Below the pieces are notes generated by a model. The model was not told the DNA's origin and did not search any database. It saw only the letters and a program-made list of their open reading frames with translations. From Cymodocea nodosa (Eukaryota; Streptophyta; Magnoliopsida; Alismatales; Cymodoceaceae): DNA of 64,000 nucleotides. A program made the translations under genes and the position numbers. The stretch spans positions 10,454,001 to 10,518,000 of the forward strand of contig CM072346.1 of the NCBI GenBank assembly GCA_036874045.1, written 5' to 3'. Positions 2 through 62,960 of the stretch are shown in pieces. Positions within the stretch are counted from its first letter, which is position 1. Each line of letters opens with the position of its first letter.

Positions 2-1889
2 GATTTTAGTAAGATTGCCCGTCCTTTAACTAGTTTATTATCAAAGGATCATAAGTTTGAATTCTCTAGAGAATGTCAAGATGCCTTTGATAAGCTTAAG
101 GGAGTCCTCACCTCAACCCTTATTGTGTATCCACCCGATTGGTCTCAACCATTCGAGTTCATGTGTGATGCATTAAATTATGCAATTGGTGTTGTGTTGG
201 GGCAAAGAATTGATAAATTACCTAGGGTAATCTATTATGCTACTAAAACTCTTAATGCAGCCCAATTGAACTATACAGTTACAGAGAAAGAATTTTTAGC
301 TATAGTTTTTGCTCTTGACAAGTTTAGATCTTATTTGCTAGGCTCTAAGTTATCACTTTCACTGATCATTCTGCCATCAAATATTTATTAGCTAAAAAAG
401 ATGCTAAGGCTAGATTAGTTAGATGGATTCTTCTCTTGCAAGAATTTGATATTTAGATAAAAGATAAGAAAGGATGTGAGAACGTAGTTGCTGACCACTT
501 GTCTCGTATTGTCACGCCTCAAGGGGAGTTACCCATTGATGAATCATTTCCTGATGAGCAGTTGATGGCTATAACTCTAATCCCTTGGTTTGCAGATATT
601 GTGAATTATCTTGTGACAAAATGACTACCTAGCAATTGGTCAAGGCAAGATATTAAGAGATTTTTAGCTAGGGTCAAAGAATTTTATTGGGATGACCCCT
701 ATCTTTATAAGTTAGGCCTTGATTTGATTTTGAGGAGATGCATCCCAGATATGGAAATTTATAGTGTGCTATCTTTTTGTCATGACCAACCTGTTGGTGG
801 TCATCTTAACCCTATTAAGACTGCAACTAAAGTTCTTCAATGTGGTTTTTTCTGGCCCACATTGCATAAAGATGCATACTTCTATGTTAAGAATTGTAGA
901 GATTGTCAAAAAGCGGGAAGATTGACTAGAAGAAATATGATGCCGCTTACACCAATTATTGAAGTTGAAGTATTTGACGTGTGGGGTATTGATTTCATGG
1001 GACCCTTCCCTAATTCTGGAGGTTATTTGTATATTCTGTTAGCTATTGATTATGTGTCCAAATGGGTTGAAGCTATTCCCACACGGACTTGTGATTTTAA
1101 GGTAGTAATAAATTTTATTAAGAGCAACATTTTTGCTAGATTTGGCATTCCTAGAGCAATCATTAGTGATAGGGGAACACACTTTAATAATAGAAATTTT
1201 GAAGTATTAATGAAAAAATTTGGAGTAAACCATAAAATGACAACCCCCTATCACCCACAAACCAATGGACAAGTAGAAAATGCCAATAAGCAAATTAAGC
1301 AAATTTTGTAAAAGATAGTTGGAAAGACAAGAAAAGATTGAGCAGAAAAGTTAGATGAGGCATTATGGGCTTATCGGACTGCTTTTAAGTCTATTTTAAA
1401 TATGTCTTCATATAGAGTAGTGTTTGGAAAGGCATGTCATTTACTAGTAGAGCTTAAGCATAAGGCAAGATGGGTTATTCAAAGACTCAACTTGGATTTA
1501 AAGGTTGCTGGTAAGAAAAGAAATTTTCAATTGACTGAATTAGAAGAAATACGGAGAGAGGCATATGAGAATTCATGGATAGCTAAAGAAAAGAGTAAAG
1601 TATTTCATGATAAAAAGCTCTTCCGTAAGAATTTTGAAGTAGGGCAGTAGGTATTGCTGTATATTTCTAGACTACATCTATTTCCTAGTAAGTTAAGATC
1701 ACGGTGGATAGGACCTTTTTGGTAAAAAGTACATTTCCTCATGGAGTAGTGGAGATTGAAAACCCTAAGAGTGGGGATGTTTCTAAGGTCAATGGCCACC
1801 GTTTAAAACCTTTCCTGCAGCAAAGATTATTTGGCCATGGAGAGAATATTGTTTTAATCGATGCTGTCTATGCTGAATCTGATAATTAG
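2..1889 (+). pseudogene. pol 3' portion: RT end, RNase H, integrase (element A)
   Basis: The reading frame opens with [10 protein letters not shown], the end of the RT connection region, then RNase H (FMCDALNYAIGVVLGQ near 160-205; TEKEFLAIVFALDKFRSYLL near 280-345). A frameshift near 345-355 falls just before the TDHSA-like RNase H segment, and in-frame stops follow near 455, 622, 1308, 1340 and 1648. Integrase starts near 750 with its HHCC zinc finger (H-x7-H, then CRDC). The catalytic triad is visible as D in [10 protein letters not shown] in ISDRGTHF and E in YHPQTNGQVENANKQI. The C-terminal part runs to DAVYAESDN at 1889. Several disruptions make it non-functional. The product would have handled reverse transcription and integration in a virus-like particle. 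Confidence 0.9.
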
Positions 1890-2091: not shown

Positions 2092-3489
2092 ATGCAATCT
2101 TCTAAATGGGTGAGAGATAGTGCATCTAGGTTAATTAGACAACCCCCTTTAGAAGAAGAAGTTAGTGTATTAGAAGAGCCTGTAAGGATGGGAGACCAAG
2201 GTATAAACCAACAATTACCTTCTCTTGAGGACATCTGCTATCCTCAAATACATGACCATCCCTCTTGTCTTATATTACCTCAAGTAGATGGACATAAATT
2301 TCAATTGCATATGAATTATGTCAATCAGTTGCCTAGATTTCATGGACTAGATAAGGAAGATGCATATGCATTTCTAAATGACTTTAATGATGTTTGCAAC
2401 ATGATTAATCTACCTGAAGTACCTGTAGATGCAATAAAGTTGAGATTTATTCCTTTCGCTCTTCGAGATGATGCAAAGCTATGGTTGAACACCCTTCCTG
2501 TTAATTCCATTTGTACTTGGACTGATTTTTGTGCTGTCTTTATTAAGAAATTTCATCCTTTGCATAAGACCATTCAAGCTAAGAATGCTATTCTAAACAT
2601 CTGCCAACAAACCAATGAACCTTTTTGGAAATATTTTGAACATTTCAATAGATTAGTGGCAAGATGTCCTAATCATGGTCTACCTAAATCAAGACAGTGT
2701 CAAGTAATCTATGAAGGATTGGATTATCAGACCAAGTTGATGTTAGAATCTGTATGTCCTGGACGATTCATGAGATTAGATGAAGTCAGTGCATGGGATA
2801 GACTTGTGGACCTTGCTGAGAGAACAATGGAAATGGAAAGTTCATCAGATAGAACATTTGATAGAACTTTGGCAAGGGGAATGCACACAGTAGACCCCAT
2901 GGTAGGCATGGAAGCTAGGATGTCGTCCATGGTTAAAAAAGTAGAAGATCTGATTATAAGTCAACAAAAGGGAAAAGATAAAGTGATTGAAGTCAAGTGT
3001 ATAGCATGTGGAATTCCTGGGCACATCATGGAAGAATGCCCTGCAATGCAAGGACAATAGTTTGAGGAAGTCAATGCCATTGGTATGGGACAAGGGTCAT
3101 TCCAACCGTCATCACACTATACTCTAGGATGGAGAAACCATCCTAATTTTTCGTGGTGACAACTGCAAGCACCTAGAAACCGTACTGAGCATCATGGACC
3201 CACTCAGCCAAATTTAAGTGATAGAATGTCTGCTTTGGAGAAAAGATTCACTGAAATGGAGAAAGGGATTCAATCCCTAATTCAAGTTAGCGGACAAGTA
3301 AATCCCATTTTAGCTAGCCATGACCAAATCATTAAGGGATTAGAAGCAAAGTTTGATAGGTTGTCTACTTCATCTGGAGGTAGAGCACGGGGAGAATTAC
3401 CAAGTAACACTGTACCAAATCCCCGCTTGGCAGGTGTGCTTTTGGCACAAGGAGAGACTTCAGGAACTAACCCTTCACCATCTGCATGA
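2092..3489 (+). pseudogene. gag: capsid plus CCHC zinc knuckle (element A)
   Basis: One frame runs 466 codons with two in-frame stops (TAG at 3058-3060, TGA at 3157-3159). The retrotransposon gag capsid region lies near residues 75-200 (LPRFHGLDKEDAYAFLNDF; IKLRFIPFALRDDAKLWL; TWTDFCAVFIKKFHPLH). A CCHC knuckle has Cys303, Cys306, His311 and Cys316. Past the first stop the frame continues through a WRNHPNFSW motif and a coiled-coil-like stretch (3226-3380) to ELPSNTVPNPR, the segment that in Athila gag usually leads toward protease; here it simply terminates. It follows integrase by 200 bp on the same strand, the reverse of the usual order. The ATG at 2092 opens the frame. Confidence 0.85.
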
Positions 3490-10263: not shown

Positions 10264-12326
10264 TGTTTGGTTGTGAAAGGTTAAGTTAGAAAATTTGTTT
10301 GAAATTTTTTTATGCTTATATAAATAATTTTTTTAGAAGTAAACAAACAACATTTCACACAAATTAGACATTAATTCCAATTTGTATTTTAATTACAAGT
10401 GCATAGTGTATATTATATTTATGTGCAAGTATAGGTCGATCCCACAGAGATTGAGTAAGAATTGTATACTGTTTTGATTTTTATATTGGAGTATAAATGT
10501 GTTTAGTAAGCACTCCGTTGAGTCACAGTTAACACAACGGACTTAGTTCGTGGAGTTATGGCTAACTCAACGGACTAATCTCGTGGACTTAAGTTAACTC
10601 CACGAGCCTAATTTTTCCAGTTGAATATTGTTAATTACAGAGGAATTCGACCAACCATTGGGTGGTTCCACAGATTGTAAATAACATCAATTAAGCTCTT
10701 TAATTAGTTAATATTAGATTTATCATTAAGCAATACTAACATTCAAATTTTTCAAATAGTAACCATTAAAATCGTTAAGTATCTGGAACGAATCAATTTC
10801 AGTAAACTGTAAAACTATTTTCTATTTTCTAAATCAAACAAACATAACATATTCACAATACTGACAATGATAACATTACTGACGATACAAAACAAACAAT
10901 ACAACACTTTAATACTAAACGTAAACACAGACAATTTGTTATTTTTGGTATTTTTGTTTTGATATGTTCCTAAAGATGAACAAAAGGTGAAATGTAAAAA
11001 TCACTACATGCGACGCGATTATACCATTGAAAACTTAATGATTTACAATCTTGTCTCCTCTCCCTATAGAATCACAAGTCCAAAATTGCAAGATGATCTC
11101 CTCTTCAGCATACTGGCATCAACCCGAAACCAAGGCTAGAAGCTTTACGATCTCCTAAGATATGAGTCGGTGCTTAGTGAAAATGGCTTCCCTTCCCGCG
11201 ACGCGATCACTCCTCATAGTGGTTGTCAAGCACTAGTTTTTGGCTCAGAATCAACCCGATATCAGGAAAGTATTCTGAGAGACCTTCGATGGTTGGTGAT
11301 TTTGGTGGTGGTGTGGAGCTTCAGGGAACTTCTAACGTTGCCTATAGTTAGCGCAGTTCTCCACCCCCTGCACACAATTTTTCTTCGTCTTTTATATTTC
11401 TTACAGTAGTAACTGCTCCTACTTAGATGATCGGTTGGATTTCCTTCATTCATATCAACGATGGTGATTTCTTCTTCATTCCATGAATGAATTCCTGCGT
11501 GATACGTGTAATCGTGGTTTTCCTTCAAATGTCCTGTTTCTACAACTGCTACAGTGGCATATTAGAAAATAAATGGTCCATGGAGTTACAGATAACTCAA
11601 CAGACTTACTTTGTTGATTTAACTATAAAACACGTGCAATAAAGAAATAAGCTACTAACACAACGCGTTACCTTAGTATGTATTCATGTAACTCAATGTA
11701 TACAGCAATGCTAACTTAATGAGTTATACATGTGCAGCTTACTTGACATAATAAAGCATTTAAATTCAACACGTGCATAAATCTAACTTAAGAAGTTCAG
11801 ATATACAACTTATGGTTTTTATTCACTAACTCAATGAGTTGTTACTTGTACCTTTTACACATTTAAGGCTTTAACTCAATGAGTTGTTACTATATACCTA
11901 CATATTCTTTTAGCATTTACTATTTCAGATACTTACGAACCTTAACTATTCGATGCTCCGATGCGTTTCGGATAGTTAGCAGATAACTCACTGAAAATCC
12001 ACTTAAATCATGCATTCAGGTTTTAACACGTGTATTCTAGGAAATAATAAAATATTCATTTTAAAACATAATTGTCCGGTACATTAAACATAACTCTTAG
12101 AAATAACAGAAAATTTAGATACTTAAGAATTAAAAACCTGCAACTTACCGATAGTTCAAAAATGTACTAAATTAATGCTAATTCCTGGAAATTATGCAGA
12201 TTCTTTCATTAAAGCATATAATAGTGCAATTATAACATAATGGCTTAATTCCCATATGATAAGCTAATTATTTTGTAATTAACTATCATTTAACCGTTAA
12301 TATTATGTATTTCTTCATTCTAAACA
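10264..12326 (-). repeat. 3' LTR of B copy 1
   Basis: It spans 2063 bp, from TGTTTAG (at 12326 reading leftward) to the AACA end at 10264. A conserved TATAAAAG lies at 11389-11396 on the minus strand, at the same place in all five B-family LTRs here. Dyads of the CGTTGAGTTA type occur at 10518-10612 and again near 11580-11710. Unlike the 5' LTR it has no internal 500-bp duplication. Confidence 0.9.
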
Positions 12327-12365
12327 CTTCCCCCATACTTAAATTTTTCTAGTCTCTAAGCAAAC
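12327..12365 (-). promoter_or_regulatory. 3' polypurine tract of B copy 1
   Basis: The minus strand reads AAGTATGGGGGAAG directly before the LTR TG, preceded by a weakened form of the TTTGCTA/TAGCAAA hairpin seen intact at 52911-52930. Confidence 0.75.
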
Positions 12366-14107
12366 TAAGATCTAACTAGTTGGTCTTTCTAAAGTACTAG
12401 ACTTAATTCTTCATTTTGTTTCTTCTTTAAAATACATGAATTAGATTACTATATAGATATTCTGTATTTTTCAGTAATTTGTTTTAACTTTGTTTTCTCC
12501 TCTTCAACCTACAAATATATTTAAAACATATGTAAATTATATACAAAATATATCAGCATCATATAGGTGTTAATTATATTATCATTTTTTTTTCTTTTCA
12601 AATATTTGTTACCCTGAATTTTTCAATATGATTTCCAGAATAAATTTCAACTACATACGAATCAAAACACAATCCAATTCAATATGATTAAAACAAGTAG
12701 AATAAAGAATTGGATCTTAGATAAACAACTTCAAAAGTCTATTCTAGATTCAGCAATCTTAGATAACAGAAAATATACTCGATTCAAAAGATATCTGTAT
12801 TTCACAAAACACTTTTATCTTTTTAGAACAGTATATGCATATTTGTACTTTAAAAGTTAATTTGAAAAGCTTGAATCATACAAGAGCTTTCTAGTGTACC
12901 CATGTATCGAGCTTTCAGTCAACAATCTCAGATCTGATCAGGATCTTAGGTTGCTAGATTTAAATAGTCCTTTTTCAGGTCAACAATCCTTACATACCTA
13001 TCTACTCAAGTACAAAAGGCTCGTGATCAAACAAGTCAATAAACTCTCAAAGTTTTTCTCTTTTTTCTTTTTTTTTTCTTTTCAACACAGTATATATACG
13101 TATTTCATTAATATAGACGCAATAAAACACAAATCTCATATAATCCTACTTCCATTATTTACTGAAAATATGAATCCATATCAATAAGCTCATACTTTTT
13201 CTATAGTTTAATAAGATCTACACATAAATCATTCTACAAGTTTAATCAATCAAATTCAATGTATCCTTGACCATATGTATTTCATTTAATCCAAAAATCA
13301 ACATTTTAGCTCTTTTAGGATTTTAGATAATTTACTGAGTTTCAGTTAAGCATTCTGATTTCTTTTTTTTTAAATTCGTGAAACTGTTAAATTCATAAAA
13401 TTCAGCAAAAACATAAGATACTATATCTAGATTTGTATGAATAGTAAAATTTTGTAGCATATTATATATAAGATTATAAATATAACATTCAAGTAGTTAC
13501 AGTTCTTAAAAATTTTATAGTCTCAATTATCGGATAGTTACAGCAAATTCATAAAAATTTTCAATTTCCATAGAACTTTTGCAGTACCATTCTAATTCCT
13601 CTAATTAAAAAAATTACTTGGCTGTTAATCAAATTACCTCCCCCCATACCTACATTTTGCATTGTCCTCAATGTAAAAGATTTTACAGTAAATTCAGTAA
13701 ATGTTAACAAGTAGGAATATTGTTTTGTTGACTTAACACCTAACTCAATGAACTTAATTCGTTGAGTTAATGAATAACTCCATGAACTAGGTTTAAATGT
13801 AAATTCAGGATAAATAATCAATTACATACCTTGTTCTTTTGTGTCTCCTTCAATATCCTCCGATTTTTGATTTTGAAAAACTTTTCATTCACAAATAAAA
13901 GTAGAATATATAACAAAATAACAAAACATAAATGGTTAAATCAATGTCTTGTGTGGAACCCAGGTTCCTATGCCTTTGGTGGCTCACAAGCAAGTCAGTT
14001 GGTTTCCTAGAATAGATACCAACAAACTAGATTGATATTTTGTTTTGTTTTGTTTTCTCTAAAAATAAATGCAGAATACACACAACATTAAAATATAGAA
14101 TCACAAC
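12366..14107 (-). other. 3' untranslated region of B copy 1
   Basis: No gene. It aligns by many shared words with 51149-52934 of copy 2, for example the GTTCCACACAAGAC block near 13950. It contains the inner polypurine tract (complement of CCTCCCCCCATACC near 13635-13650) and one CGTTGAGTTA-type dyad near 13730-13790. T-rich runs at 13056-13080 and 13360-13372 match A-rich runs in copy 2. Confidence 0.65.
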
Positions 14108-15244
14108 TTAAGAACATGATTGAAAAGTAATAACAAATGGAATAAACATGTCTGTTTAAGCAAACATTTTAGGCATAATCCTTCTTGCTATTAATTCTAT
14201 TTTAATGCAGTCTACTTTCCTTTTTAACTTGTAAACTTGCAATATATTATTAATACTAAATATAAGTGTATTACCATTAATGAATTGAAATGTAGAAAGG
14301 GATCCTCTACTGTTCCAAGATAATGTAGTTGCTTCTATTTCTACATCTATTTCAATATATTCCTCTTCCCACTTCCATTCATTTAGGTCTTTCATAATTC
14401 ATATTTGAAATTTCCTCAATTCATCCCACCATCTAATCAGACATAAAGTAGGATCATCATATTAATTATACTATATTCCTAATTGAATTTTATCATATTC
14501 TGAAGATGATGGTTTAGCTATATTACTCGGTATAGGCAATATTTCTATAAAGTCATTATCATTACTGTCTATGCCTACTATGTATAAATCAGATCTAAAT
14601 GCAACTGTTATATCTATGACTAAATATATATATCCATCAAGTATGACATGAATGTTGTTAATTAATGCTTTCTATCCTAGATATATCATAATATTTTCAG
14701 TCCTAGTATTCAGAAAATTATACACACTTAAGCATAAATCTTCATCCCAATTTCCAGTTGATCTCCATTAATACAATTTTTCAGGAATAGTCAAATTTTT
14801 ATCAGAAAATGTTAAAGCTAACCCACAATTTTTAGTTGGTACTTCAAATCTATTAGGCCTTCCTATATTCCATTCTTCTCTAGTGATAGGATTTCTAATT
14901 AAGATATCAGGTAACAGAATTGCATACCTTGGTTTGGTTCTGTAAATAATTAATCCTTCATCTATCCCCATAATATGATCTATTCCTTCTAATGTATTGG
15001 GTGGAATTCCAGTAGTTTCTTCCATATTCAGATATTCATAGCTGATTGAACTATGATTAAATGACTTTCATAAAAATCCATCTCTCATCTTAGTCATTTT
15101 TGCAGCTTGTAGTCCATGAAAATATTTTTCTCTAACATGGTCTTTGATTTCCTTTGATACACAACATAATCTGCACAAATCTTTAGCAGACAAGTTACTC
15201 AGTACTTCCCTCAGTGCATCTAGTGGTAATTCCATCAATTTCAT
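14108..15244 (-). pseudogene. F-box/F-box-associated protein gene (B copy 1)
   Basis: The first ATG after the proposed splice acceptor opens a frame with an F-box (ELPLDALREVLSNLSAKDLC, then CCVSKEIKDHV). F-box-associated features follow: ILIRNPITREEWN near 14880, and further down LCLIRWWDELRKF, EWKWEEEY and ILQVYKLKRK. The full length is about 379 codons, normal for a plant F-box/FBA protein, but stops interrupt it, including a TAG at 14672-14674 that copy 2 shares. Plant F-box proteins join SKP1 and CUL1 in SCF ubiquitin ligases and choose the substrate. This is no normal retrotransposon gene, so capture from a host is the likely origin. Confidence 0.75.
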
Positions 15245-15255
15245 CTGTTGTGATT

Positions 15256-16853
15256 CTGTATAACATAAACAAAAATTAACAGAGACAAAATCAACATAGC
15301 TACTTACTTACCCTTGTGGAGTTAGGTCATAACTCAACGGACTAAGTTCGTTGATTTAAGTAACAACTCTACGATATTACTAACTATAATTAAACTCACA
15401 TATTTTTTCTTTTTATATTTTTCTATTTACTATATTATACATAGTTACTTTAGTTATACTACTTCATTCAGCTTCCCTCCCATAGGAGGTATCAATTTCA
15501 TTAACAGTTCTATTGATAGGGTTAGGTACTACTTGCATTGGCAATCCTCTAATAGGTCTAATTTCTATTGATTCTTTTTGTCTAGGTATATTTCTATTCA
15601 TATTTTGATTTTGAATTGCAGCATTTCCAAATAAAAGATCTAGACGATTGTTTAATTGTTGCATTATCTTTTCTAATTTCTCTATTTTAGATCCTTGTTC
15701 AATTAATGCTTCATAACTTATATTTTTGTCATTTATATTTTCTCCTCCCTGAAAATTGTTGTTTCTCCAAGATAGATTCAGGTGATTTCTCCAATTAGGG
15801 TTATAAGAATTTCCAAAGTTATCTTTCTGGTTTCTAGCATAAATAATATCTAAATCATTAACGTTTGCATTCTTTTCTGCTAGCTTTTGATTTAATGATA
15901 ACTCTTCTATTTTCTTTGTTAATTCAGTTAATTTAACTTTAAGCATAGTGCTTGAATCTATTTCATGCATTCCCCTTGGCAATACTCTTTCATCTATAAT
16001 AGCTTCAGCTGAGTTTTCCCACTATGCAATTCTTTTTGCAAAGTTTTCTAAGTATGCCCATGCTTCTTCACTACATAGTTTTAAAAATCCATTTTGACAA
16101 GTAGATTCTAATAAAGATTTCATTGAAACATCTATGACTTCATAAATTATACCTATTAATTGTGCTTTACTCATTGCATGATGTGGACATTGAGTCAGTA
16201 AATCTTTAAATCTTTCAAAATATTTCTAGAATGATTCTCCCTGTTTTAGGCTACACATTAATATTTCCTTTTTCTTTTTAATCATTTGATGAGTTGGATA
16301 TTATTTTTCTAGAAAAACAGAGCAAAATTTAGTCCATGCTGAAATTGAATCAGGCAACAGAGTATATAACCATCTCTTAGTTGTGTCTTTTAAAGCAAAA
16401 GGGATATATCTAAGTTTAATAGCATCAATACTCATGTTCGGCATTTTCATCATTTGACAAACTTCATTAAATTCTCTAAAGAAATAATAGGCATCCTCTC
16501 TTTCTAATCCATGAAAATGTGGCAATTGACTAATATAATTAGATTTCAATTCAAACCTATCTCCCTCAAAGTTTGGCAATTGAATCCATGAAGGTTCATC
16601 AACTAATTCAGGATACAGAATTTCCCTTAATGGTTTTTCTACTAGAGCAGTCATATCTTCATTCTCTTTTAGAGAAAGGTTAGCTACACCCCTAAGGATT
16701 TCGTTAAAGTCCAATTTAGAAAATATTTCAGTACGCCTCTGTGTTGAATAATCCTATATAGGTGTTCTTACTAATTGTTTAGTGTTAGGAGAATGAATCC
16801 ATGTACTCATAAACTCTTACATAAAGTAAAATAGCAGAAGATTAATTACATAC
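15256..16853 (-). other. proposed gag-containing GT-AG intron (B copy 1)
   Basis: On the minus strand the sequence TTCAAACTA is followed by GTATGT (16853-16848), a strong plant 5' splice site. At the other end a T-rich run finishes TTATACAG (CAG at 15258-15256) before AATCACAACAG. In copy 2 the matching flanks are joined directly, TTCAAACT then G then AATCGACA (49991-50004), with gag missing. The proposed intron is 1598 nt and contains the complete gag ORF. The donor is also present in copy 3 at 62916. Confidence 0.8.
15464..16810 (-). pseudogene. gag capsid ORF without a zinc knuckle (B copy 1)
   Basis: The ATG at 16810 lies 43 nt inside the proposed intron and starts MSTWIHSP. An in-frame TAG at 16754-16756 is shared with copy 3. 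The capsid region reads LPHFHGLEREDAYYFFREF and IKLRYIPFALKDTTKRWLYT, aligning with element A gag. Stops interrupt it near 16298 and 16228 and once near 16020. After the capsid come NSYNPNWRNHLNLSWRNNN, a predicted coiled coil (EQGSKIEKLEKIMQQLNNRL) and RGLPMQVVPNP. Where element A has its CCHC knuckle this protein has none; the knuckle is found instead at the head of pol. Confidence 0.85.
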
Positions 16854-17782
16854 TAGTTTGAAGCTTTGTATTTAATAAATAGTTGTTGATAGATGAAGTT
16901 GAATCAGCTGCTTCTACTTCTAGTTCCCCAATGAATTTTGTTTCCTCTCCTAAGTGTTGGTAACTCGTAAATAACATTCTGTTCTCTATTTATAATGCAC
17001 ATCCATAAAGTAGATGAATCTCGTTTCAAGAACGTGTCTTGTAACATGCAGTGTGGTTCCTATTTTTATGGATATGTGTTTCACTTCTAATTTTAAATTT
17101 TAGTAACCGTTAAACCTACGAAGTTTCATTTATGTCTAAAAGAATAATCGTTTAGCTTAATCCACGAACTAACCTCGTTGAGTTACAGTTAACTCAACAG
17201 ACTAGCTTCGGTTACTATTTGCTAACTCCACAGACTAACTTCGTTGAGTTACAATTAACCTTAACTCCACGAAGTCAATAATAAAATATAAGGTCACTCC
17301 AGACTTACTCCATTGAATTAACACTTAGCAAATTTTCTAAAACTTACTCCTCGTATTAACTTCTATATTTTTTTTCTACTGCATTTTGTCAACTTAAATA
17401 AAGTTAAATAGATGTCATTAATGCAATGTTCTAAATAAAACTCATTTAAATTTGAACATTATATGCATATTTAATTTGTAGTTTATTTCATGTATGCAGA
17501 ACTTACATTTTACTTTTTAGCATGCAGATACATTCAACATTAACCAAACATCGTGCATTTAATCATGTCATTCAGAAAATTTGTAAATCTTTTAAGCAGT
17601 CTTGTACATTGTTTAAATAGTTATATAATATTCAAGATAGTTCATCCATTACATCATTCATTCTCAAACACGAATGTAGAAACATTTGAATAACATTCAT
17701 TCATTTATATGAATAATTTACATTTACATTCAGTTAGATATTTTCCATACAAATATAAGTATAAGTAGATGAACAATACAAT
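16854..17782 (-). promoter_or_regulatory. accessory ORF-gag spacer with dyads (B copy 1)
   Basis: No gene. At 17160-17335 there is a cluster of CGTTGAGTTA / TAACTCAACG and TAACTCCACG half-sites, and near 16980-17050 a stretch shared with copies 2 and 3 (CACGTTC, AGACACGTTCTTG on the minus strand). The spacing to the splice donor is conserved: 929, 932 and 943 nt in copies 1, 2 and 3. Confidence 0.6.
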
Positions 17783-20048
17783 TTAATCTTTCTTCCTAAG
17801 TTCATCTACTTCCTTTTGGAGTTTTTCTAATTGTTGCTCTAATTGATTTATCCTCTCTACAACTCCAATAATGCCTCTAGAAGGTCCAGATACTTCAGCA
17901 GCTACAGCATAATTTCTATATTCTTTCACTGAAATGGCTCTAGATTTTATCCTTTTGGATGTCCATTTCGTGAAATCAATATTATCCACCATCAGTAGTG
18001 GAATCAAATCTCCATAAAATAATTTCTTTTTTACTACTCTCAATTTGGAGATAAAAACTACAAACCAATTAACTTGAATCTTATTCACAACTACATAGGT
18101 GGCCCACTTGACAAACTGACTTAATTCAATATCATGGCCTTGTCGTTGATAGACATTTTTTATCAAAATGGTAGCTATCATGTGTGCTTTACCATTTAAG
18201 TGTTTCAATCTGTTTAATAATGGCACACCAAGATTGATAGCTAAATTGTCATTGATTTCCTGTTGTCCACTCAATGGTAGTTGTGCTTTCCATAATTTCT
18301 TTCCCTTCATTTCTCAATCCTAAAATGTTGTGGAGAAGCTCTAGTATTTTCTATACATCAGCTTGCTCCACGTTGGAAATTAATCCACTTTCTTTGTCTC
18401 TCAAATTGGCATAGAAGTAGGGCATTAGATTTTCATATACTACATGCCCTCTCTGTTGAGAAATAAATTGCAGTAGACACTGAAACTCAAATAAGTCCTT
18501 AATTTCTTGCATACCATCCTAGTTTATTGGTCTACTGTATATGATATCATAACCCCTAATCTCTTGATATTTATTATATGCTTCCTGACTCCAAAAGTGT
18601 ACTTCATTTAAAATTGTTGCTTCAGTCAGGTTAGGAATTTGAATTTATTGCTTTAGAGGGGTTTGTTCTTGAATTTCCTCTTCCATTTGGTGAACTTGAA
18701 TTGGCTGGGAATGCTCTAGAGATTCCTACATTTTTACTTCTACTTCTATCTATGGTGGAGAGTTGACAGAACTCTCTACTCTATCTTGAATTCTTTTAAT
18801 TAATTACTGAAGAGTTTTTCCCTCTTCAGTGGAATCTGTCGAGTCATTCCTTTCTTGTTCAATGAGTACTTGTTCAGCTCCTTCTCTTTCTTCTCCCTCC
18901 TGACTACCAATCTGCATTGTCATTGTTCTTTCTGATCTTGTGGTAGATTGGGATGGAGTCACAAGCAAATCAGCTTCTGCCCTAATTTCTGTTCTTTCTG
19001 TTTGTACAAGCTGTAGATTAATTTCAGCCTATTTTCCTTCTCCTCTTTGCTCTTGCTGTTGCTGCTCCTGCTCCTCCTCAGAATCGAATAGCAGGTTTAC
19101 AAAAATTTGCTCTACAGGCCCTACTGATATTTGTATTTCAGATTTAATCTCATCTTGATGTTCAGGCACTATCTCTTTTCCTTTTCTTCTTCTAATTAAC
19201 TGTGCCTGATCTTCCTCTTCTTCTTCTGAGATTAAATCTACAAAAATAGGCTCTGCAGGCCCTCGAGCCACAAGTACTGGCTCTTCCTGTTTAACTTTTT
19301 CAATAATTGCTGATCTTGAAGGACTAGCTTCAGCTTCTCTTGCAGCACTTGCTCTAGCTGCTTCCAAATGTTGTTCAACTTTAATTTTGTATTGGGCCTT
19401 TAACTTTTCTTTAGTCCTTTTCCTATAGAGTGCATCATAAAGTAAATGAGATTTTGCCACAGCCATATCTTCAGAATTTCCTTGGCTCTTGGCAATTGTC
19501 ACCAGCTCTACAAATTCTTTCCATTCCTCTAGCATAGATGGCCCCAAAAATGCTGCTCTTTCTAATGGCCCCAAAAATGCTGCTCTTTCTAATGGCGGTG
19601 GAATGGATGGTCCTGGCTACTATTCCTCAAAGACAAGTCTTTCAGCAGTCGGTTCCTGTTGTTCTTCAATTGCCTGCTCTTCATTTCCTTTCCTTTGTTG
19701 CTCCTAGATTGCCCACTGAGCCCGTCTACCTATGTGTCTTTTGAACTAGGGTCGGGACTTACGTTGGATCAATTCTAGGACAACTTCATTATTTTGCCCG
19801 ATTCGTCTTTCTCTATTTACAGCAACTTCCATTGCTACTTTGATTCTTGTTTCCATAATCTGAGGTATTTTTATACCTAAATCTACTAAAACTTTTCTCT
19901 AGTCGAAAAGGTCAGATTCTACCTTTTGCACCTCTTTTTCCCTCGTTGTATTTTTGATCTTCTGCCTTGTGTGCCATTCTTCCAATTCTTTAAGAAATTC
20001 TGATGTGTCAACTACGTCCTCCCAGAATTCTAGTGTCAACTTTGTCAT
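17783..20048 (-). pseudogene. accessory (env-position) ORF with Transposase_32-like region (B copy 1)
   Basis: It starts at the ATG at 20048 (MTKLTLEFWEDVVDT) and ends with a coiled coil (INQLEQQLEKLQKEVDELRK) just before 17783. It is about 755 codons with several stops. The N-terminal third is charged and helical; the middle (19550-18600) is Glu-rich with LISEEEEEDQAQLIRRRKGK. The C-terminal third (18540-18050) matches the putative plant transposon protein family in style: FYANLRDKE, LLHNIL, LNRLKHLNGKAHMIATILI and FVKWATYVV. Athila elements often carry an env-like ORF in this position. I see no clear signal peptide or membrane span, so calling it env would be unsupported. Confidence 0.7.
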
Positions 20049-20631
20049 CGTGGAGTTACGAAACGAACGGAATCACTTTGCTCTCTACTATTCTAAGTTC
20101 TAAATGATACTGCGAATAATGACCCCAAATCCTAAGTTTTACTATAAATAAGCCCTAAGTTTGGGAGAGTAATCGGGTCATTTTTTTGCGTAAACTCTCG
20201 CTCTCTCATCTATCTCTCCGTGGAATTACAATTAACTCCACGGGCTAAGTCTGTGGACTTAACTATAGTACTCCATTGAGTTATAGTTATCTCAATGGGG
20301 TAAGTTCGTTGACTAATCCTAGACTCAATGGAGTAAGTTCGTTGAGTTAAGCATAACTCAACAGACTTTTCGTAAAGTTATAACTAATAAAAATACTTAT
20401 AATAATAATTTACTTCGGTCTAGACCAAAGAATTTCTAGTCTAATCGACTCTTAATTTTTTCAACATTTTAGCATTTCGGTCAAACTGTTATAGTCCTCG
20501 ATTGAACTAAAATTAAATTATATATATATATTTTTCTTTCGGTAGAACCGATACTATGCTTCCGTAACAACAACATTTTCACTTAATAATATATAGTTTT
20601 TTTTTATTATATATACTTAGAAAATTTCTTA
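20049..20631 (-). promoter_or_regulatory. pol-accessory ORF spacer with two dyad types (B copy 1)
   Basis: At 20218-20375 are CGTTGAGTTA-type dyads, and at 20415-20575 degenerate CGGTT..ACCGA repeats such as TTTCGGTAGAACCGATACTA. Both blocks occur in the same order in copies 2 and 3. No gene. Confidence 0.65.
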
Positions 20632-23600
20632 CTAAGTAAAGCTCGAGTAGTCCTCTACTCTTACTTCTTCTATAATTCCAAACAAACTTTTTGGTATCTT
20701 CAAAATAGGTCTAAGTCTTTGTCCAATTACTTTAAATATATTCTGATTTTTAGGATTTTCAATTTCAATAGCTCCATAGGAATAAATATTTCAAACTATA
20801 TAAGGTCCTGCCCATCTAGATCTTAATTTCCCTAGATGGTTATGGAGTCTAATCATGTAAAGATATACTTCTTATCCTATTTCAAAGGTTTTTGGAATAA
20901 TTTTTTTCTTTTTCTCTTACAGTCTTCGAATAAGCTTCATTCCTAAATTCTTCCAATTCAATCAATTGCATTTTCTTGTTTTTAGCAGCTTGATTTAAAT
21001 TAGTGTTTAGAGTTTTTAATGCCGAATAAGCTTTATGTTCAATTTGAACTAGTAAATGACAATTTTTTCCATATACTAGCCTAATAGGTGACATACCTAA
21101 GCTTGTCATATAGGTAGTTCTATAAGCCCAAAGTACATCTATTAATCTATTAGCCCAATCTTTTCTAGTAGGATTTACTACTTTTTCTAAGATTAACTTA
21201 ATTTGTTTGTTTGCACTTTCTACTTGTCCACTTGTTTGTGGATGATATGATGTTGCAATTTTGTGATTTACTCCATATTTCTTCATTAAGGCTTCAAAAC
21301 TTCTATTATAGAAATGAGTTCCTCTATCACTGATAATAGCTTTAGGTATTCCAAATTTGGCAATTATATTAGTTCTTATAAAATGTATTACCACTTTGTT
21401 GTCATTAGTTTTTGTAAGAATAGCTTTTATACACTTAGATACATAATCCACCTCCAACAATATATAATTAAATTGATTAGACATAGGAAATGGACCCATA
21501 AAATCTATTCCCCACACATCAAAGATTTCAACCTCAATAATAGGATTAAGAGGCATCATATTCCTCTTGGATATTCTTCCTATTTGTTAACATCTTAAAC
21601 AACTTAAGCAATATTTATGAGCATCTTTGAATAGTGTTGGCCAATAAAATCCACATTGCAGAATTTTGGCAGTAGTTTTCCCTCAACCAAAATGCCCTCC
21701 ACATGCTTAGTCATGGCAGAAAGACAATATGCTCTGATATTTAGTTTTTGGAACACACCTCCTTAAAACCATATCAAGACATTTCTTAAATAAGTATGGG
21801 TCTTCCCAATAGTAATATTTTACTCTTGAAAAGAATAATTTCTTATCCTGTCTATTCCAATCCTTAGGTGTTAAACCAGTAACTAAGTAATTAACTATGT
21901 CTGCATACCAAGGTATTGTGTTGATGGTCATTAATTGTTCATCAGGAAAATTATCCTTAATTTCAATATTTGATTTTTCTATTTGTAACCTTGATAAGTG
22001 ATCTGCTACTACATTCTCACAACCTTTTTTATCTTTAATTTCTAGATCAAATTCTTGTAATAATAATATCCATCGGATCAATTTAGGTTTAGTCTCTTTC
22101 TTTGCTATTAGATGTTTTAAAGCTGAATGATCCATGTATACTACCACTTTAGCTCTAATCAGATATGATCTAAACTTTTCTAAGGCAAACACAACCACTA
22201 ATAGTTCTTTTTCAATAGTTGTATAATTAACTTGAGCATCATTTAAGGTTTTGCTTGCTTAATGAATCACTCTAGGAGATTTTTCTATCTTCTATCCCAA
22301 CATTGCTCCTACAGCAAAATCAGATGCATCACACATTAATTCAAATGGATGACTCCAATCAGGTGCTTGAATTATAGGAGTTGAAATTAAGCTAGTTTTA
22401 AGTTTGAAAAATGCTTATTTGCAATTTTTATCAAAGTTGAATGGGACATCTTTTAATAGATTAGTTAAAGGTCTAGCTATTTTGCTAAAATCTTTAATGA
22501 ATCTTTTATAAAATCTAGCATGTCCTAGAAATGATCTAATATCTTTTACTGATTAAGGTTTTGGTATATTAGAAATTACTTCTATTTTAGCTTTATCTAC
22601 TTCCAACCCTTTCTTTGAAACATGTCCCAAGACTATTCCTTGTTTAACCATGAAGTGACATTTTTCCCAATTTAGAACCAGACATTTTTCCACACAGCGT
22701 TTTAATACTTGGTCTAAATTGCTTAAACAAACTTCATACGAAGTTCCATAAATAGTAAAATCATCTATAAATATTTCTAAAAAATCTTCAGTCATTCTAG
22801 TGAATATGCCCTGCATACACCTTTGAAAGGTGGCTGGTGCATTGCATAATCTGAATGGTATTCTCTTAAAAGCATAAGTTCCATTAGGACAGGTGAAAGC
22901 TGTCTTCTCTTGATCCTCTAATGCTACTAGATCTTGGTTATATCCTAAATACCCATCTAGGAAACAAAAATATTCTTGCCCTACTAATTTCTCTAACATT
23001 TGATCTATAAAAGGTAAGGGAAAATGATCTTTCCTAGTCACAACATTCAGCTTTCTATAGTCTATACACACTCTCTAGCGTGATTGAATTCTAGTAGGTA
23101 TCAAGTCCTAACTTTCATTCCTAATAACTGTTAATCCTGATTTCTTGGGAACTACATGGATTGGGCTAACCCATGAGTTATCAAAAATCAGATAAATTAT
23201 GTCATTATGTAACCATTTAACTATTTCCTTTCTAACTACTTCTTTAAGGTTAGGATTTAATCTTCTCTTAGGAATTCTAATAGGTTTAGCATTCTCTTCT
23301 AAATATATGTGGTGACAGCATAAAGTTACACTTAACCCTTTTATATCAGTCATAGTCCATCCTATTGCTTCTTTATAAGTTTTGACTACATCTTTTAATT
23401 TAGCAATTTGATCCTCTTTTAAATCTGAAGCAATAATGATTGGACAAGTTCATTTTTCTTCCAGAAATATATAGTTAATTCAAGAGGTAAATGTTTTAAA
23501 TCTAAATGTTGTCTATCAGAAGCTAAAGCTCCCAACTGAACATCATCATTTTCTATATTAATCTCTTCTTGATCTCCTTCTATATTTATGCTTTCACTTT

Positions 23601-25250
23601 TTCCTATATTTTCAGAATTTAGTTGCCTATTTAGTTCTTCCTGAATCACATCATCTAGCATATCTCCTTCATCCGCTAAAAAGTCTATAGTATGTAAGGA
23701 CATTTCTAACTCAAGCTTTTATGATTTGATGTTTAATTGAGTATCCTCATTACCATATGCTACATTCATTACTCTAATTTTACAATTTATAATAGCCCCT
23801 GATGTTGCTTAGAATGATCTTTCCAAAATTAAAGATGTATCTTGATTTTAATGCTTAATTTGTTGGAAATCCAAAATTACAATATCTATAGGATATATGA
23901 AATTTTTGATTTTAATTAGGACATCCTCTATTTTCCTCTAGGGTATCTTATACTTCTATCAGCTAATTGAATAACAGTCCTAGTAGAGATTAAGCCTTTT
24001 AATCCTAAGGATGCAAATATATCACTCAGCATAACATTTATACCTGCACCTAGGTCTATTAAGGTTCTTTCTAGAATGGTATTTCCTATAGTACATGATA
24101 TAATAGGGATTCTACGATCAGATAACTTTTTAGGAATTTGTGGTAGAAATAGGGAACTACTTTGCTCAGCTAAAAAGACTTTCCTTAAAACTTTTCGCTC
24201 TCTTTTCTTAGTACACCAATCCTTAAAAAATTTAGCACAAGGTAGCATTTTTTGCAATAAGTCTAACAAAGGAATGTTAACTTGTACTTTTTCAAAAATT
24301 TCTCTAATTTTTTCTTGTTTTTTAGGAAATGTTTGTTGTAATCTTTTAGGATAGGATGCTAATGATTGTGATTTAAAAGATTCTTTGTCTTTCATTTCAT
24401 TTGTTTGATCATTTTTAGTCTCATTTTCAGATTCAGATTTTTCTTTAGTGATTTCTAAATTTTCAGCCATTACATTTTCATTATCATTTTGGATTTTGTT
24501 CTTATTCACCTTCATATTATTTTCTTTTTGAATTCTTGGTGGTATATCAATTCCAGATCTTAATGTTATACATACATCTTCCAGATTTTCATTACTTTCG
24601 TGATGTTCTTGTATTTCATTTTCGTGATTATGATCTTCAACTGTTTTTAGTTTTACATTGTATTCTTTAAATTCTATTGCATTGGTATTTTCTTTTGTCT
24701 GTATATCTTGCAAATTATGCAAATCTGTAACATTAAGGTTTTCATTTGTGTTTTCCTATTGCATACCTTGTAATTTCATTGTAAATTCGTCCAATGCTTT
24801 TAATTTTCTTTCCAAATCATCTAATCTCATTGCATTCAATTTTTGATCAATTTTCATTATGGTTTTTTCAATTTCGTAAATGATATTAATTTTAGGTTCT
24901 ATATATGCTTCCTTATAGTTTAATTGGTTGACTTCTTGTTGCTAACACATATATTGTTATAGTTTGTCCATATTTTGCTCTAAGCTACGCTCCAATCTGT
25001 CATACCTATCCCAAACTTCCTTGTCTCTCAACATATTACACATTCTAAGCTGACCATCGGTAGGGTAAACTATAGGATTTTCATACTCAGCTCTATTATA
25101 TTAAATATAATTCATTTGTTATTCATGTGCTCTAACCATCTGCAATGGTCTCAGTTTCAAACAATTAGAGATGTCGTGACTTTCCAAATTACAGAATTCA
25201 CATATGCTACCTACAGGTTTCAGAAATCTTGGAGCATAAGCATATGCCAT
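20632..25250 (-). pseudogene. pol polyprotein: zinc knuckle, PR, RT, RNase H, INT (B copy 1)
   Basis: The ATG at 25250 begins MAYAYAPRFLKP and is followed at once by a CCHC knuckle, CEFCNLESHDISNC. A coiled linker with a CITLRSG motif precedes protease, with DLGAGINVM near 24050. RT follows (23380-22560; IFIDDFTIYG, active site FIDD instead of FMDD), then RNase H (22330-21960), the integrase HHCC region (21720-21590) and the DDE core ([32 protein letters not shown]; 21520-21180). It ends at TAG 20632-20634. Numerous stops break it, for example near 22557, 23105 and 24725. There is no capsid domain between the start and protease, unlike ordinary gag-pol. Confidence 0.9.
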
Positions 25251-25331
25251 ATTCTCAATTATAGAAAAAAGCACACAACGCTCCTCCTGCTATTAAAACA
25301 AAACAACACTCATAGTTGCCTACCTTCTCAA

Positions 25332-25349
25332 TCCCCAGCAACGACGCTA
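25332..25349 (-). promoter_or_regulatory. primer-binding site, tRNA-Asp type (B copy 1)
   Basis: The minus strand reads TAGCGTCGTTGCTGGGGA, 7 nt inside the 5' LTR. It resembles TGGCGCCGTTGCCGGGGA, complementary to the 3' end of plant tRNA-Asp and used by Athila-type elements, with mutations. Confidence 0.75.
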
Positions 25350-25356
25350 GAAAACT

Positions 25357-27943
25357 TGTTTGGTTGTGAAAGGTTAAGTCAGAAAACTGGTTTGAATTTG
25401 TTTTTATGCTTATATAAATAATTTCTTTTAGAAGTAAACAAACAACCTTTCACACAAATTAGACATTAATTCCAATTTGTATTTTAACTGCAAGTGCACA
25501 ATGTATATTGTATTTGTGTGCAAGTATAGGTTGATCCCACAGAGATTGAGTAAGAATTGTACACTGTTTCGATTTTTATATTGGAGAATAAATGTGTTCA
25601 GTAAACACTCCGTTGAGTCACAATTAACACAACGGACTTAGTTCGTGGAGTTATGGCTAACTCAACGAACTAACCTAGTGGACTTAAGTTAACTCCACGA
25701 GCCAAATTTTTCTAGTGGAATATTGTTAATTACAAAGGAATTTGGCCAACCATTGGGCGGTTCCACAGATTGAAAATAACATCAATTAAGCTCTTTAATG
25801 CTAGTTAATATTAGATTTATCATTAAGCAATACTAACATTCAGATATTTCAAATAGTAACCATTAAAATCGTTAAGTATCTGGAATGAATCAATTTCAAT
25901 AAATTGTAAAACTATTTTCTTTTTTCTAAATCAAACAAACATAACACATTCACAATACTGACAATGATAACATTACTCACGATACAAAACAAACAATACA
26001 ACACTTTAATACTAAACGTAAACACAGATAATTTGTTGTTTTTGGTATTTTTGTTGCGAACTGTTCTATTTTGTTGCGAATTGTTCTATTTTTAACAATC
26101 AAATATATATATTCAATAAGATCTCCGTCGAGTTACAATTAACTCAATAGACTAAGTTCATTGAGTTATGGCTAACTCAACGGACTAACCTCGTGGACTT
26201 AAGTTAACTCCACGAGCTTGTCTTTCCTATTTAATACTACTATTTACAGAGGAATTCGGCCAACCATTGGATGGTTCCACAGATTGTAAATAACATCAAT
26301 TAAGCACTTTAATGTTAGTAAACACTAGATTTATCATTAGGCAATACTAACATTCAGATAATTCAAATAGTAACCATTAAAATCTTTAAGTCTATCGAAC
26401 GAACCAATTTCAGTAAACTGTAAAACTAAAACGAACATAAAACATTCACAACACTAACAAAGATAACATTAATCACAATACAAAACAAACAATACAATAC
26501 CTAAATACAAAATACAAACATAGATAAGTTGTTTTAGGTATTTTTGTTTTGATATGAGCATGAAAATGGGCGAAAGGTGAAATGTAAAGTAATCTCAGTC
26601 GACAGTAAATACTTTCGTCACTATATGCGACGCGATTACACTACTAAAAATTAAACCACTTACAATTCTGTCTCCTCACCCTATAGAATCGCGAGTCCAA
26701 AATTGTAAGATGATCTCCTCTTCAACATACTAGCATCAACCCGAAACCAAGACTAGAAGCTTTACGATCTCCTAAGATATGAGTCAGTGCTTAGTAAAAA
26801 TGGCTTCCCTTCCTACGACGCGATCACTCCTCACAATGGTTATCAAGCACTGGTTTTTGGCTCAAAATCGACCCAATATCAGGAAAGTGTTCTGACAGAC
26901 CTCCGATGGTTGGTGATTTTGGTGGTGGTGTGGAGCTTCAGGGAACTTCTAACGTTGCCTACAGTTAGCATGGTTCTCTACCCCCTGCATACACAATTTT
27001 TCTTCATCTTTTATATTTCTTACAATAGTAACTGCTCTTGCTTAGATGATCGGTTGGATTTCCTTCATTCATATCAACGATGGTGATTTCTTCTTCATTC
27101 CATGAATGAATTCCTGCGTGATACGTGTAATCATGGTTTTCCTTCAAATGTCCTGTTTCTACAACTACTACAGTGGCATATTAGAAAAAAAATGGTCCGT
27201 GGAGTTACAGATAACTCAATGGACTTACTTCATTGATTTACCTATAAAACACGTGCAATAAAGAAATAAGCTACTAACACAACGCATTACCTTAGTGTGT
27301 ATTTATGTAACTCAACGCGTACAGTAATGCTAACTTAACGAGTTATACACGTGCAGCTCACGTGACTTAATAAAGCATTTAAATTCAACACGTGCATAAA
27401 TCTAACTTAACAAGTTCAAATATACAACTTACAATTTTTACTCACTAACTCAACGAGTTGTTACTTGTACCTTTTACACATTTAAGCATTTAACTCAACG
27501 AGTTGTTGCTGTATACCTGCATATTCTTTTAGCATTTACTATTTTAGATACTTACAAACCTTAACTATCCGATGCTTAGATGCATTTCGGATAGTTAGCA
27601 AATAACTCACTGAAAATCCACTTAAATCATGCATTCGGTTTTAACACGTGTATTCCAGGAAATAATAAAATATTTGTTTTAAAACATAACTATCCGGTAC
27701 ATTAAACATAACTCTCCGAAATAACAAAAAATTCGGATACTTAAGAATTAAAAACTTGCAACTTACCAACATTTAGAAATGTACTAAATTAATGCTAATT
27801 CCTAGAAATTATGAAGATTCTTTCATTAAAGAATATAACAGTGCAATTATAACATAATGGCTTAATTCTCATATGATAAGCTAATTATTCAGTAATTAAC
27901 CATCATTTAATCGTTAATATTATGCATTTTTTCATTCTAAACA
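25357..27943 (-). repeat. 5' LTR of B copy 1, with internal duplication
   Basis: At 2587 bp it is about 520 bp longer than its 3' partner. A block of roughly 480 bp (about 25560-26050) is repeated at about 26090-26560, each copy containing the dyad cluster and the GGCCAACCATTGG segment. The second unit is preceded by AACAATCAAATATATATATTC, which resembles the LTR subtype at 39579 and not the first unit, so the LTR is a mosaic. The conserved TATAAAAG is at 27008-27015 (minus). Confidence 0.85.
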
Positions 27944-41405: not shown

Positions 41406-41423
41406 TGGCACCGTTGCCAGGGA
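41406..41423 (+). promoter_or_regulatory. primer-binding site, tRNA-Asp type (B copy 2)
   Basis: TGGCACCGTTGCCAGGGA starts 7 nt after the LTR end and differs at two bases from the tRNA-Asp complement typical of Athila. Confidence 0.85.
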
Positions 41424-44500: not shown

Positions 44501-46218
44501 CTTCTGATTTTGCTGTAGAAGCAGTGTTAGGACAGAAAATAGAAAAATCTCCTAGAGTGATTCATTATGCAAGTAAAACCTTAAATGATGCTCAAGTTAA
44601 TTACACAACTACTGAAAAAGAATTATTAGCTGTTGTGTTTGCTTTAGAAAAGTTTAGATCATATTTGATTGGAGCTAAAGTAATAGTATACACGGATCAT
44701 TCAGCTCTAAAACATCCAATAAAGAAAAAAGAAACTAAACCTAGATTGATCCGATGGATATTATTATTGCAAGAATTTGATCTAGAAATTAAAGATAAAA
44801 AAGGTTGTGAGAATGTAGTAGCAGATCATTTATCAAGATTACAAATAGAAAAATCAAATATTGAAATTAAGGATAATTTTCCTGATGAACAATTAATGAC
44901 CATCAACACAATGCCTTGGTATGCAGACATAGTTAATTACTTAGTTACTGGTTTAACACCTAAGGATTGGAATAGACAGGATAAGAAATTGTTTTTCTCA
45001 AGAGTAAAATATTACTATTGGGAAGACCCTTACTTATTTAAGAAATGTCCTGATCTAGTTTTAAGGAGGTGTGTTCCAGAAACTGAATATTCGAGTATAT
45101 TGTCTATCTATCATGACCAAGCTTGTGGAGGACATTTTGGTTCAGGAAAAACTGCTGCAAAAATTCTACAATGTGGGTTTTATTGGCCAACACTATTCAA
45201 AGATGCTTATAAATATTGCTTAAGTTGTTTAAGATGTCAACAAATAGGAAGAATATCAAAGAGGAATATGATGCCTCTTAATCCTATTGTTGAGGTTGAA
45301 ATCTTTGATGTGTGGGTAATAGATTTTATGGGTCCATTTCCTATATCTAATCAATTTAATTACATATTGTTGGGAGTGGATTATGTATCTAAATGGATAG
45401 AAGCTATTCCTACAAAAACTAACGATAACAAAGTGGTAATACAATTTATAAGAATAAATATATTTGTCAGATTTGGAATACCTAAAGCTATTATCAGTGA
45501 TAGAGGAACTCATTTCTGTAATAGAAGTTTTGAAGCCTTAATGAAGAAATATGGAGTAAACCACAAAATTGCAACATCATATCATCCGCAAACAAGTGGA
45601 CAAGTAGAAAGTGCAAACAAACAAATTAAATTAATCTTGGAAAAAGTAGTAAATCCTACTAGAACAGATTGGGCTAATAGATTGATTGATGCACTTTGGG
45701 CTTATAGAACTGCTTATAAAACGAGCTTAGGTATGTCACCTTTTAGGCTAGTATATGGAAAAAGTTGTCATTTACTTGCTGAAATAGAACATAAAGCTTA
45801 TTGGGCATTAAAAACTCTGAACACTAATTTAAATCAAGCTGCTGAAAATAGGAAAATGCAACTAATTGAATTAGAAGAATTTAGAAATGAAGCTTATTCA
45901 AAGACTGTAAGAGAAAAAGAGAAAATTAAATTCTAGCATGATAGAAAAATTATTCCTAAAAACTTTGAAATAGGACAAGAAGTATATCTTTATATGGCTA
46001 GACTCCATAACCATCCAAGAAAATTAAGATCTAGATGGGCAGGACCTTACATAGTTCGAAATGTTTATCCTTATGGAGCTATTGAAATTGAAAATCCTAA
46101 AAATCAGAATATATTTAAAGTAAATGGGCAAAGACATAAACCTATTCTTAAAACACCAAAAAGCTTTTTTGGAATTATAGAAGAAATCAGAGTAGAGGAC
46201 TACTCGAGTTTTACTTAG
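41573..46218 (+). pseudogene. pol polyprotein: zinc knuckle, PR, RT, RNase H, INT (B copy 2)
   Basis: It starts MAYAYAQRFLK with a perfect CCHC knuckle, CEFCNSKGHDISDC, residues 22-35. Coiled linker, CVTLRSRTD and YPERLQQT motifs follow, then protease (DLGAGINVM at 42761-42787). RT covers 43500-44300 ([31 protein letters not shown] active site), RNase H 44460-44850 ([26 protein letters not shown]) and integrase 45050-46218 (HDQACGGHF and CLSCLRC finger; D in VIDFMGPF, D in ISDRGTHF, E in QVESANKQI). Stops at about 41933, 42499, 43465, 43747 and 45934 and a shift near 42160 disable it. An open stretch of 717 codons covers RT to INT, the best preserved pol here. No capsid domain precedes protease. 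Confidence 0.92.
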
Positions 46219-62915: not shown

Positions 62916-62921
62916 GTATGT
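62916..62921 (+). promoter_or_regulatory. splice donor before gag (B copy 3)
   Basis: GTATGT after AGACTA, at the position where copy 2 is joined to its F-box gene. Confidence 0.75.
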
Positions 62922-62960
62922 AATTAATCTTCTACTATCTTATTTTATGATTAAGAGTTT

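Follow-up and report, generated by a model that had tools for sequence, protein, structure and literature searches.

Elements in the Window

The window, by which we mean the whole 64,000-nt stretch of DNA analysed, contains nested LTR elements. The one of concern here, element B, is present in three copies, and the coordinates of its features are collected in Table 1. Copy 1 is bounded by TG..CA LTRs and by a target duplication of 5 bp with one mismatch (GCTTG versus ACTTG), within the 4–6 bp range of LTR retrotransposons, and we therefore take it to have integrated as a single unit. Copies 2 and 3 form a tandem array with one LTR in common (52949–54870). A second family, element A, occupies region 1–3900 on the forward strand. 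It begins before the window and aligns to copy 2 over window positions 2–1798 (DNA, 68%).

Table 1. Positions of the features of elements A and B within the window.
Feature	Element	Position	Strand	Remarks
Integrase	A	625..1311	+	Pfam; within the 2–1798 alignment; upstream of gag
gag	A	2092..3060	+	CCHC knuckle at 2998–3039; downstream of integrase
Whole element	B copy 1	10264..27943	-	TG..CA LTRs, flanks GCTTG / ACTTG
Exon 2 with F-box protein frame	B copy 1	14107..15255	-	first ATG 15244; 7 in-frame stops
Putative intron with gag	B copy 1	15256..16853	-	1598 nt, GTATGT...TTATACAG
gag (capsid part) frame	B copy 1	15464..16810	-	448 codons
Putative leader exon 1	B copy 1	16854..16964	-	alignment; 5' end assumed ~30 nt past the TATA-like block
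TATA-like block TATAAATA	B copy 1	16987..16994	-	141 nt before intron start (counted by hand)
ORF2	B copy 1	17783..20048	-	
CX2CX4HX4C zinc knuckle	B copy 1	25161..25202	-	5' ORF, just after the PBS-like site
PBS-like site	B copy 1	25332..25349	-	
Element	B copy 2	LTR from 39579, next LTR from 52949	+	
PBS-like site	B copy 2	41406..41423	+	
CX2CX4HX4C zinc knuckle	B copy 2	41621..41662	+	5' ORF
RT–RNase H–integrase frame	B copy 2	43750..45936	+	Pfam
ORF2	B copy 2	46844..49065	+	
TATA-like block TATATATA	B copy 2	49856..49863	+	143 nt before 49999 (counted by hand)
Fused junction, gag absent	B copy 2	49997..50000	+	join 49998 / 49999
F-box frame	B copy 2	50008..51148	+	one frame change; one stop in second half
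Element	B copy 3	LTR at 52949, past window end	+	
TATA-like block TATAAATA	B copy 3	62775..62782	+	141 nt before intron start (counted by hand)
Putative intron, start only	B copy 3	62916..64000	+	window ends inside; acceptor beyond window

Copy 1 runs from its first LTR through a PBS-like site, a zinc-knuckle 5' ORF, protease, RT, RNase H and integrase to ORF2, gag, the F-box frame, a purine tract and the second LTR. The parts of pol were named by Pfam in copy 2 (RVT_1, 6.9e-29; RT_RNaseH, 3.5e-35; H2C2, 5.9e-13; rve, 8.5e-16) and transferred to copies 1 and 3 through the DNA alignment, so that the RT–RNase H–integrase order of Ty3/gypsy elements is seen by Pfam in copy 2 and by DNA alignment only in the other two. 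The protease of copy 2 has a weak Pfam match (0.0017) that falls below the cut-off. No second RNase H family (aRH, which marks Tat) was detected in the 728-aa copy 2 frame at a Pfam E of 0.1. PF20167 matches ORF2 in one copy 2 piece only, below cut-off, and Athila ORF-1 (PF03078) gave no match among the ORF2 pieces scanned with Pfam. The PBS-like sites were compared with an 18-nt motif, from which they differ by three (copy 1) and two (copy 2) mismatches; the type that they resemble may be that of tRNA-Asp, as in Diaspora. An Rfam scan at the gathering threshold and a tRNA scan of the window returned no matches.

The LTR of copy 2 begins within what appears to be an older truncated B LTR (37555–39578; flank AGTAA; region 37555–41398). 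The 5' LTR of copy 1 has an internal duplication of about 450 nt (25587–26548, reverse strand) that is absent from its 3' LTR. In copy 3, 582 nt at 55759–56340 replace 1167 nt of the protease–RT region of copy 2.

Position and Composition of gag

A tblastn search of the whole window (E 1e-3) finds gag at three places, copy 1, copy 3 and element A, and at all three it lies 3' of integrase. Pfam gag (PF03732) is matched above cut-off in element A (1e-18) and by two pieces of copy 3 (4.3e-6 and 1.4e-5), where the frame begins at 62961 on the forward strand. The first gag piece of copy 1 scores 0.022, below the cut-off, and was identified through copy 3 and element A. The copy 1 frame has four in-frame stops, no frameshift that we could see and no CCHC knuckle. 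One of the stops, a TAG at codon 19, is also found in copy 3, and could be either an inherited defect or a read-through signal.

The knuckle is found elsewhere. A six-frame search of the window for CX2CX4HX4C uninterrupted by stops yields three instances: one in A's gag and one in each of the 5' ORFs of copies 1 and 2. In copy 3 it has been lost by one change, a Y replacing the last C. Since the motif is in the 5' ORF and none is in the 3' gag of B, the B knuckle sits beside the PBS with the capsid part some 8 kb away. In copies 1 and 2 the 5' ORF leaves no space for a capsid ahead of the knuckle. Read from the sequence, the gag of B is split, its predicted capsid part being separated from its nucleocapsid knuckle. 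The knuckle and the PBS-like site suggest that B is Athila-like, but the gag-first order GAG-PROT-RT-RH-INT of a published survey (PMC6317226) is not the order found in copies 1 and 3 or in element A. Element A has a gag of its own with the knuckle included, and because its gag too is behind integrase, the 3' position looks older than the split between A and B.

Protein searches returned three matches among 506 candidates for the gag of A and two among 25 for the gag of B. All five are on contigs below 2 kb that give no context, with "hypothetical protein" as the sole source name. Among viral contigs there were no relatives of the A gag, the copy 2 pol frame or the A integrase.

The Junction at the gag Gap

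The putative intron of copy 1 begins at ...CAAACTA / GTATGT (16854 / 16853) and ends at ...TTATACAG, followed by AATCACAACAG (15256 / 15255). The donor in copy 3 reads ...AGACTA / GTATGT (62915 / 62916). In copy 1, T makes up 0.51 of the 43 nt that precede gag and 0.47 of the final 60 nt of the intron; gag itself is not T-rich (0.29), and the exon flanks are at 0.26 and 0.30. Copy 1 thus has the GT-AG ends and the T-rich stretch before the acceptor that are expected of a spliceosomal intron, and copy 3 has the donor.

In copy 2 the corresponding position reads ...CAAACTG / AATCG.... A blastn alignment of copy 2 to copy 1 breaks at the junction, with 287 of 348 positions identical on the left and 283 of 330 on the right. 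The last exon base is G in copy 2 and A in copies 1 and 3, and, by eye, four matching exon-2 bases are followed by a 2-nt length difference; for these reasons the match at the junction is exact to about one base and not letter for letter. The initial annotation had described exons ending in CAAACTA or AGACTA that meet GTATGT, a T-rich run after gag in copy 1, flanks fused in copy 2 with nothing between, and gag nowhere else in that copy. These observations are confirmed, and the tblastn search finds no gag in copy 2. The join is present as described, but only to that precision of about one base.

Copies 1 and 2, compared over their internal regions (12,993 and 11,549 nt, the first 109 nt of copy 2 unaligned), chain in two blocks. 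There are six indels of at least 25 nt. Five measure 25, 26, 29, 53 and 53 nt, and the sixth is the gag gap, with 1606 nt against 6. Over these regions the gag gap is the sole indel above 53 nt, and, as read from the printed bases, it alone among the six has GT..AG ends. An automated test with shifts of up to 3 nt either way scored GT..AG at none of the six, the block edges of the gag gap lying outside the junction.

The strength of the splice sites was scored with approximate weights. By these, the copy 1 acceptor is strong, ranking third of 928 AG sites at 13.8–25.3 kb, and the donor is moderate, ranking 31st of 480 GT sites in the same interval. Over the whole internal region of copy 1, 37 of 558 GT sites score at least as high as the donor and 5 of 1021 AG sites at least as high as the acceptor. 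A second acceptor just before the gag ATG of B was considered and judged weak by eye.

A Putative 3' Transcript and the F-box Frame

A TATA-like block precedes the donor or the join in all three copies and is followed by 21 nt that are identical in all three in the alignment. Since this conserved block precedes the donor, it suggests a separate 3' transcript, which would start after the putative promoter block and have a leader of about 110 nt. There is also an AT block, TTATTTATA, 5' of ORF2 in copies 1 and 3 that is altered in copy 2.

In a transcript that retained the intron, the gag ATG of copies 1 and 3 would come after two very short frames, and the gag frame would run for 18 codons to the stop common to both. 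If the intron were spliced out, the F-box frame of copy 1 would open at the first exon-2 ATG. A full-length unspliced RNA would not be expected to express gag by ordinary scanning because gag is 3' of pol and ORF2. On that account the likeness to complex retroviruses suggested earlier holds only in part.

The F-box (PF00646) is matched above cut-off in copy 1 (5.5e-12) and copy 2 (2.1e-10). For the F-box associated C-terminal domain, one piece of copy 2 gives a match to FBA_3 that does not reach the cut-off (E 1.2), and nothing appears in P0004. The frame had no match among solved structures at E 1, none in NCBIfam, and none among the 921 candidates of a protein search.

We considered whether exon 1 is itself coding. 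In copy 1 a frame from a conserved ATG is open for 41 codons and would continue over the junction in the phase of the F-box frame. In copy 3 that frame has two stops and many amino-acid changes, and in copy 2 it has an early stop and is shifted. Because it is broken in both, exon 1 is taken to be a leader. Were it coding, the TATA-like block would be too close to its ATG to serve it.

Constraint and Divergence

The dN/dS values, given in Table 2, fall below 1 in every frame compared, and those of gag and the F-box frame are lower than in their own shifted frames.

Table 2. dN/dS between copies of element B in the true frames.
Frame	Copies compared	dN/dS
gag (338 codons)	1 vs 3	0.32
F-box frame (367 codons)	1 vs 2	0.49
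ORF2	3 vs 1; 3 vs 2	0.35; 0.31
pol	2 vs 3; 2 vs 1	0.22; 0.21
5' ORF	2 vs 1; 2 vs 3	0.47; 0.49
Protease region	1 vs 2	0.45

Shifted frames range from 0.42 to 1.33 over nine comparisons, and from 0.42 to 1.16 for gag, F-box, ORF2 and pol. The nearest shifted frame is close to the true one for gag (+1, 0.415 versus 0.324), the 5' ORF (0.54 versus 0.47) and protease (0.52 versus 0.45). Because the shifted values of these three are little higher, the support for constraint is strongest for pol and ORF2.

The two LTRs of copy 2 are 96.1% identical and those of copy 1 are 90.0% identical (first 1.8 kb). In the 0.9 kb between ORF2 and the donor, copy 2 is 75% identical to either of the others, and copies 1 and 3 are 84% identical to each other. 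The figures for ORF2 are 79% and 77% for copy 2 against the others and 81% for copy 1 against copy 3. Identity is 92% in gag between copies 1 and 3, and 85% in exon 2 between copies 1 and 2. Since copy 2 has diverged by 25% from the others in that 0.9 kb but by 4% between its own LTRs, the loss of gag may be old. The 3' half of copy 2 may represent a diverged subfamily, and gag may have been lost at its insertion or earlier.

Proposed Origin of Copy 2 and the Alternatives

The reading that we favor, at a probability of about 60%, is that B is an Athila-like Ty3/gypsy element with a split gag, the capsid part lying in a 3' intron under an internal promoter, and that copy 2 is derived by splicing. 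By this account the nucleocapsid knuckle would have stayed 5' with protease, RT, RNase H and integrase, and the capsid part would stand behind integrase and ORF2, where a 3' unit starting at the putative internal promoter would enclose it in a spliceosomal intron. A transcript keeping the intron would be the capsid message, and one from which it was removed would be the F-box message. A genomic RNA minus the intron would then have been reverse-transcribed and integrated to give copy 2 or its ancestor, with capsid for that integration presumably supplied in trans by other copies. That copy 2 or an ancestor of it arose from a reverse-transcribed spliced RNA appears to be the best explanation of the junction, and we consider it likely. 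As to a switch between capsid and F-box protein by retention or removal of the intron, the chances seem about even. Several points weigh against the favored account: there is a single gag-less copy in the window, the acceptor of copy 3 lies beyond the window, the donor is moderate, the join is inexact, and there are stops in gag. The low T content of gag, the small contrast with shifted frames, the sub-threshold Pfam score of the copy 1 gag piece, the divergence of copy 2 ahead of the junction and the different arrangement in element A also count against it.

A different route to the same products would be splicing from a donor in the 5' LTR leader to an acceptor before gag or the F-box frame, in the manner of the Bagy-2 env and with no internal promoter. 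Element A lends this some support. It has an acceptor, CTAACATGCAG / GTG, at 2007, 84 nt from the gag ATG and third among the AG sites of window 1–4500 (approximate weights). This is a good acceptor before gag in place of the arrangement seen in B, and it stands shortly before the ATG, so that splicing from a site farther upstream may give A access to its gag. Spliced env RNA has also been reported in this lineage (PMC7264820, PMC3735527). For B, however, about 480 nt aligned before the donor contain, by eye, no acceptor common to the three copies, whereas the TATA-like block is retained in all three. We think it possible but doubtful that leader splicing accounts for B.

An ordinary DNA deletion could have removed gag from copy 2, its ends falling at splice-like motifs by chance. 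The lone gag-less copy would suit such an event, as would a join that is one base off a letter-perfect splice with a 2-nt difference adjoining. To set against these, we made 2,000,000 random deletions of 500–3000 nt in copy 1. Any GT..AG at one shift within 1 nt was found for 1.0% of them, but both ends lay within 1 nt of equally strong sites, by the approximate weights, in a fraction of only 5e-6. That chance deletion is made unlikely by the GT-AG ends, as had been argued initially, is thus upheld at about 5 per million. That copies 1 and 2 differ by no other indel longer than 53 nt also speaks against deletion. A deletion through microhomology was looked for by eye, and none fits the observed join. 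We regard deletion as improbable.

Still less probable is that the short form is ancestral and that gag was inserted later between the flanks as an intron gain. The 25% divergence of copy 2 before the junction is in its favor, but GT..AG ends are not what one would expect of an inserted stretch, and the gag behind integrase in element A is unfavorable to it as well. Least credible is that the 3' position of gag merely reflects tandem or chimeric elements or an error of assembly: copies 2 and 3 do have an LTR in common, and the survey dropped unexpected domain orders as likely mispredicted (PMC6317226), but the target duplication of copy 1 leads us to reject a tandem-array artefact there, and the recurrence of gag behind integrase at three places and the 5' ORF without space for capsid are equally against it.

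Relationship to Known Elements

Our literature searches, to which subscription papers were mostly closed, turned up no plant LTR element reported to have gag behind integrase, and no title describing one with an F-box gene. Element B resembles Athila, Calypso and Diaspora in its RT–RNase H–integrase order and its length, and the gag of element A shares their CX2CX4HX4C. Its PBS-like site may be of the tRNA-Asp type. Like Athila and Calypso, and unlike Diaspora, B also has an extra sense ORF behind pol. The differences concern gag. Diaspora encodes gag and pol as a single ORF whose gag part carries the knuckle (PMC1142308), whereas in B the capsid part is after pol, in a putative intron, and the knuckle is 5'. 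The gag of Athila is tabulated as ORF1 (PMC2410132) and not after pol as here.

Bagy-2 is like B in expressing a sense ORF behind pol via splicing (PMC7264820, PMC3735527), but its spliced product is env-like, and in B it is the putative intron that contains gag. BARE1/BARE2 and EVADE use alternative splicing to set the supply of gag, according to PMC3735527 and PMC12786077, and BARE2 is a gag-less parasite. In those elements gag lies at the 5' end and its frame is terminated through splicing, with a 104-nt intron in BARE1, according to the same sources. Ogre, also Ty3/gypsy, has an intron that is spliced out of some of its transcripts (PMC6317226). That intron is a few hundred bases long and lies between gag-protease and RT, not around gag. 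Grande reportedly has an extra gene transcribed from its own promoter, but that gene is antisense and is not gag.

The wider novelty would be a displaced gag in two families, A and B, and in B its separation from the knuckle. That capsid precedes pol is treated as a general rule among LTR retroelements. In the survey cited above, 8453 elements classed as Ty3/gypsy have the order GAG-PROT-RT-RH-INT, gag was unidentified in 159, and elements of unexpected order were removed as likely mispredictions (PMC6317226). If the layout described here belongs to a real lineage, domain-order filters can hide such elements. Packaging and integration of spliced RNA is a step that has been proposed for gene loss from retroelements, and the authors of the Diaspora study suggested that an env-less element could arise in one step if an improperly spliced RNA were packaged and reverse-transcribed (PMC1142308). 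A gag-containing intron, if truly such, would be a natural record of spliced RNA that was packaged and integrated, and one that can be counted genome-wide. More tentatively, there could be a lineage in which capsid was split off, placed behind pol with its own promoter and enclosed in an intron, so that splicing would switch from particle building to an F-box protein and each over-spliced RNA that was copied would found a gag-less parasite; we hold this doubtful. That the F-box protein is perhaps aimed at host silencing factors is pure conjecture.

Other Repeats

At 29180–33889 on the reverse strand there is a copia-type element, with matches for RT, integrase and gag. Tandem units of 32–33 nt with similar palindrome-like sequence recur in the LTRs and non-coding internal parts of several elements in the window (62503–62603, 46567–46658, 36536–36681, 8569–8679 and 20276–20361).
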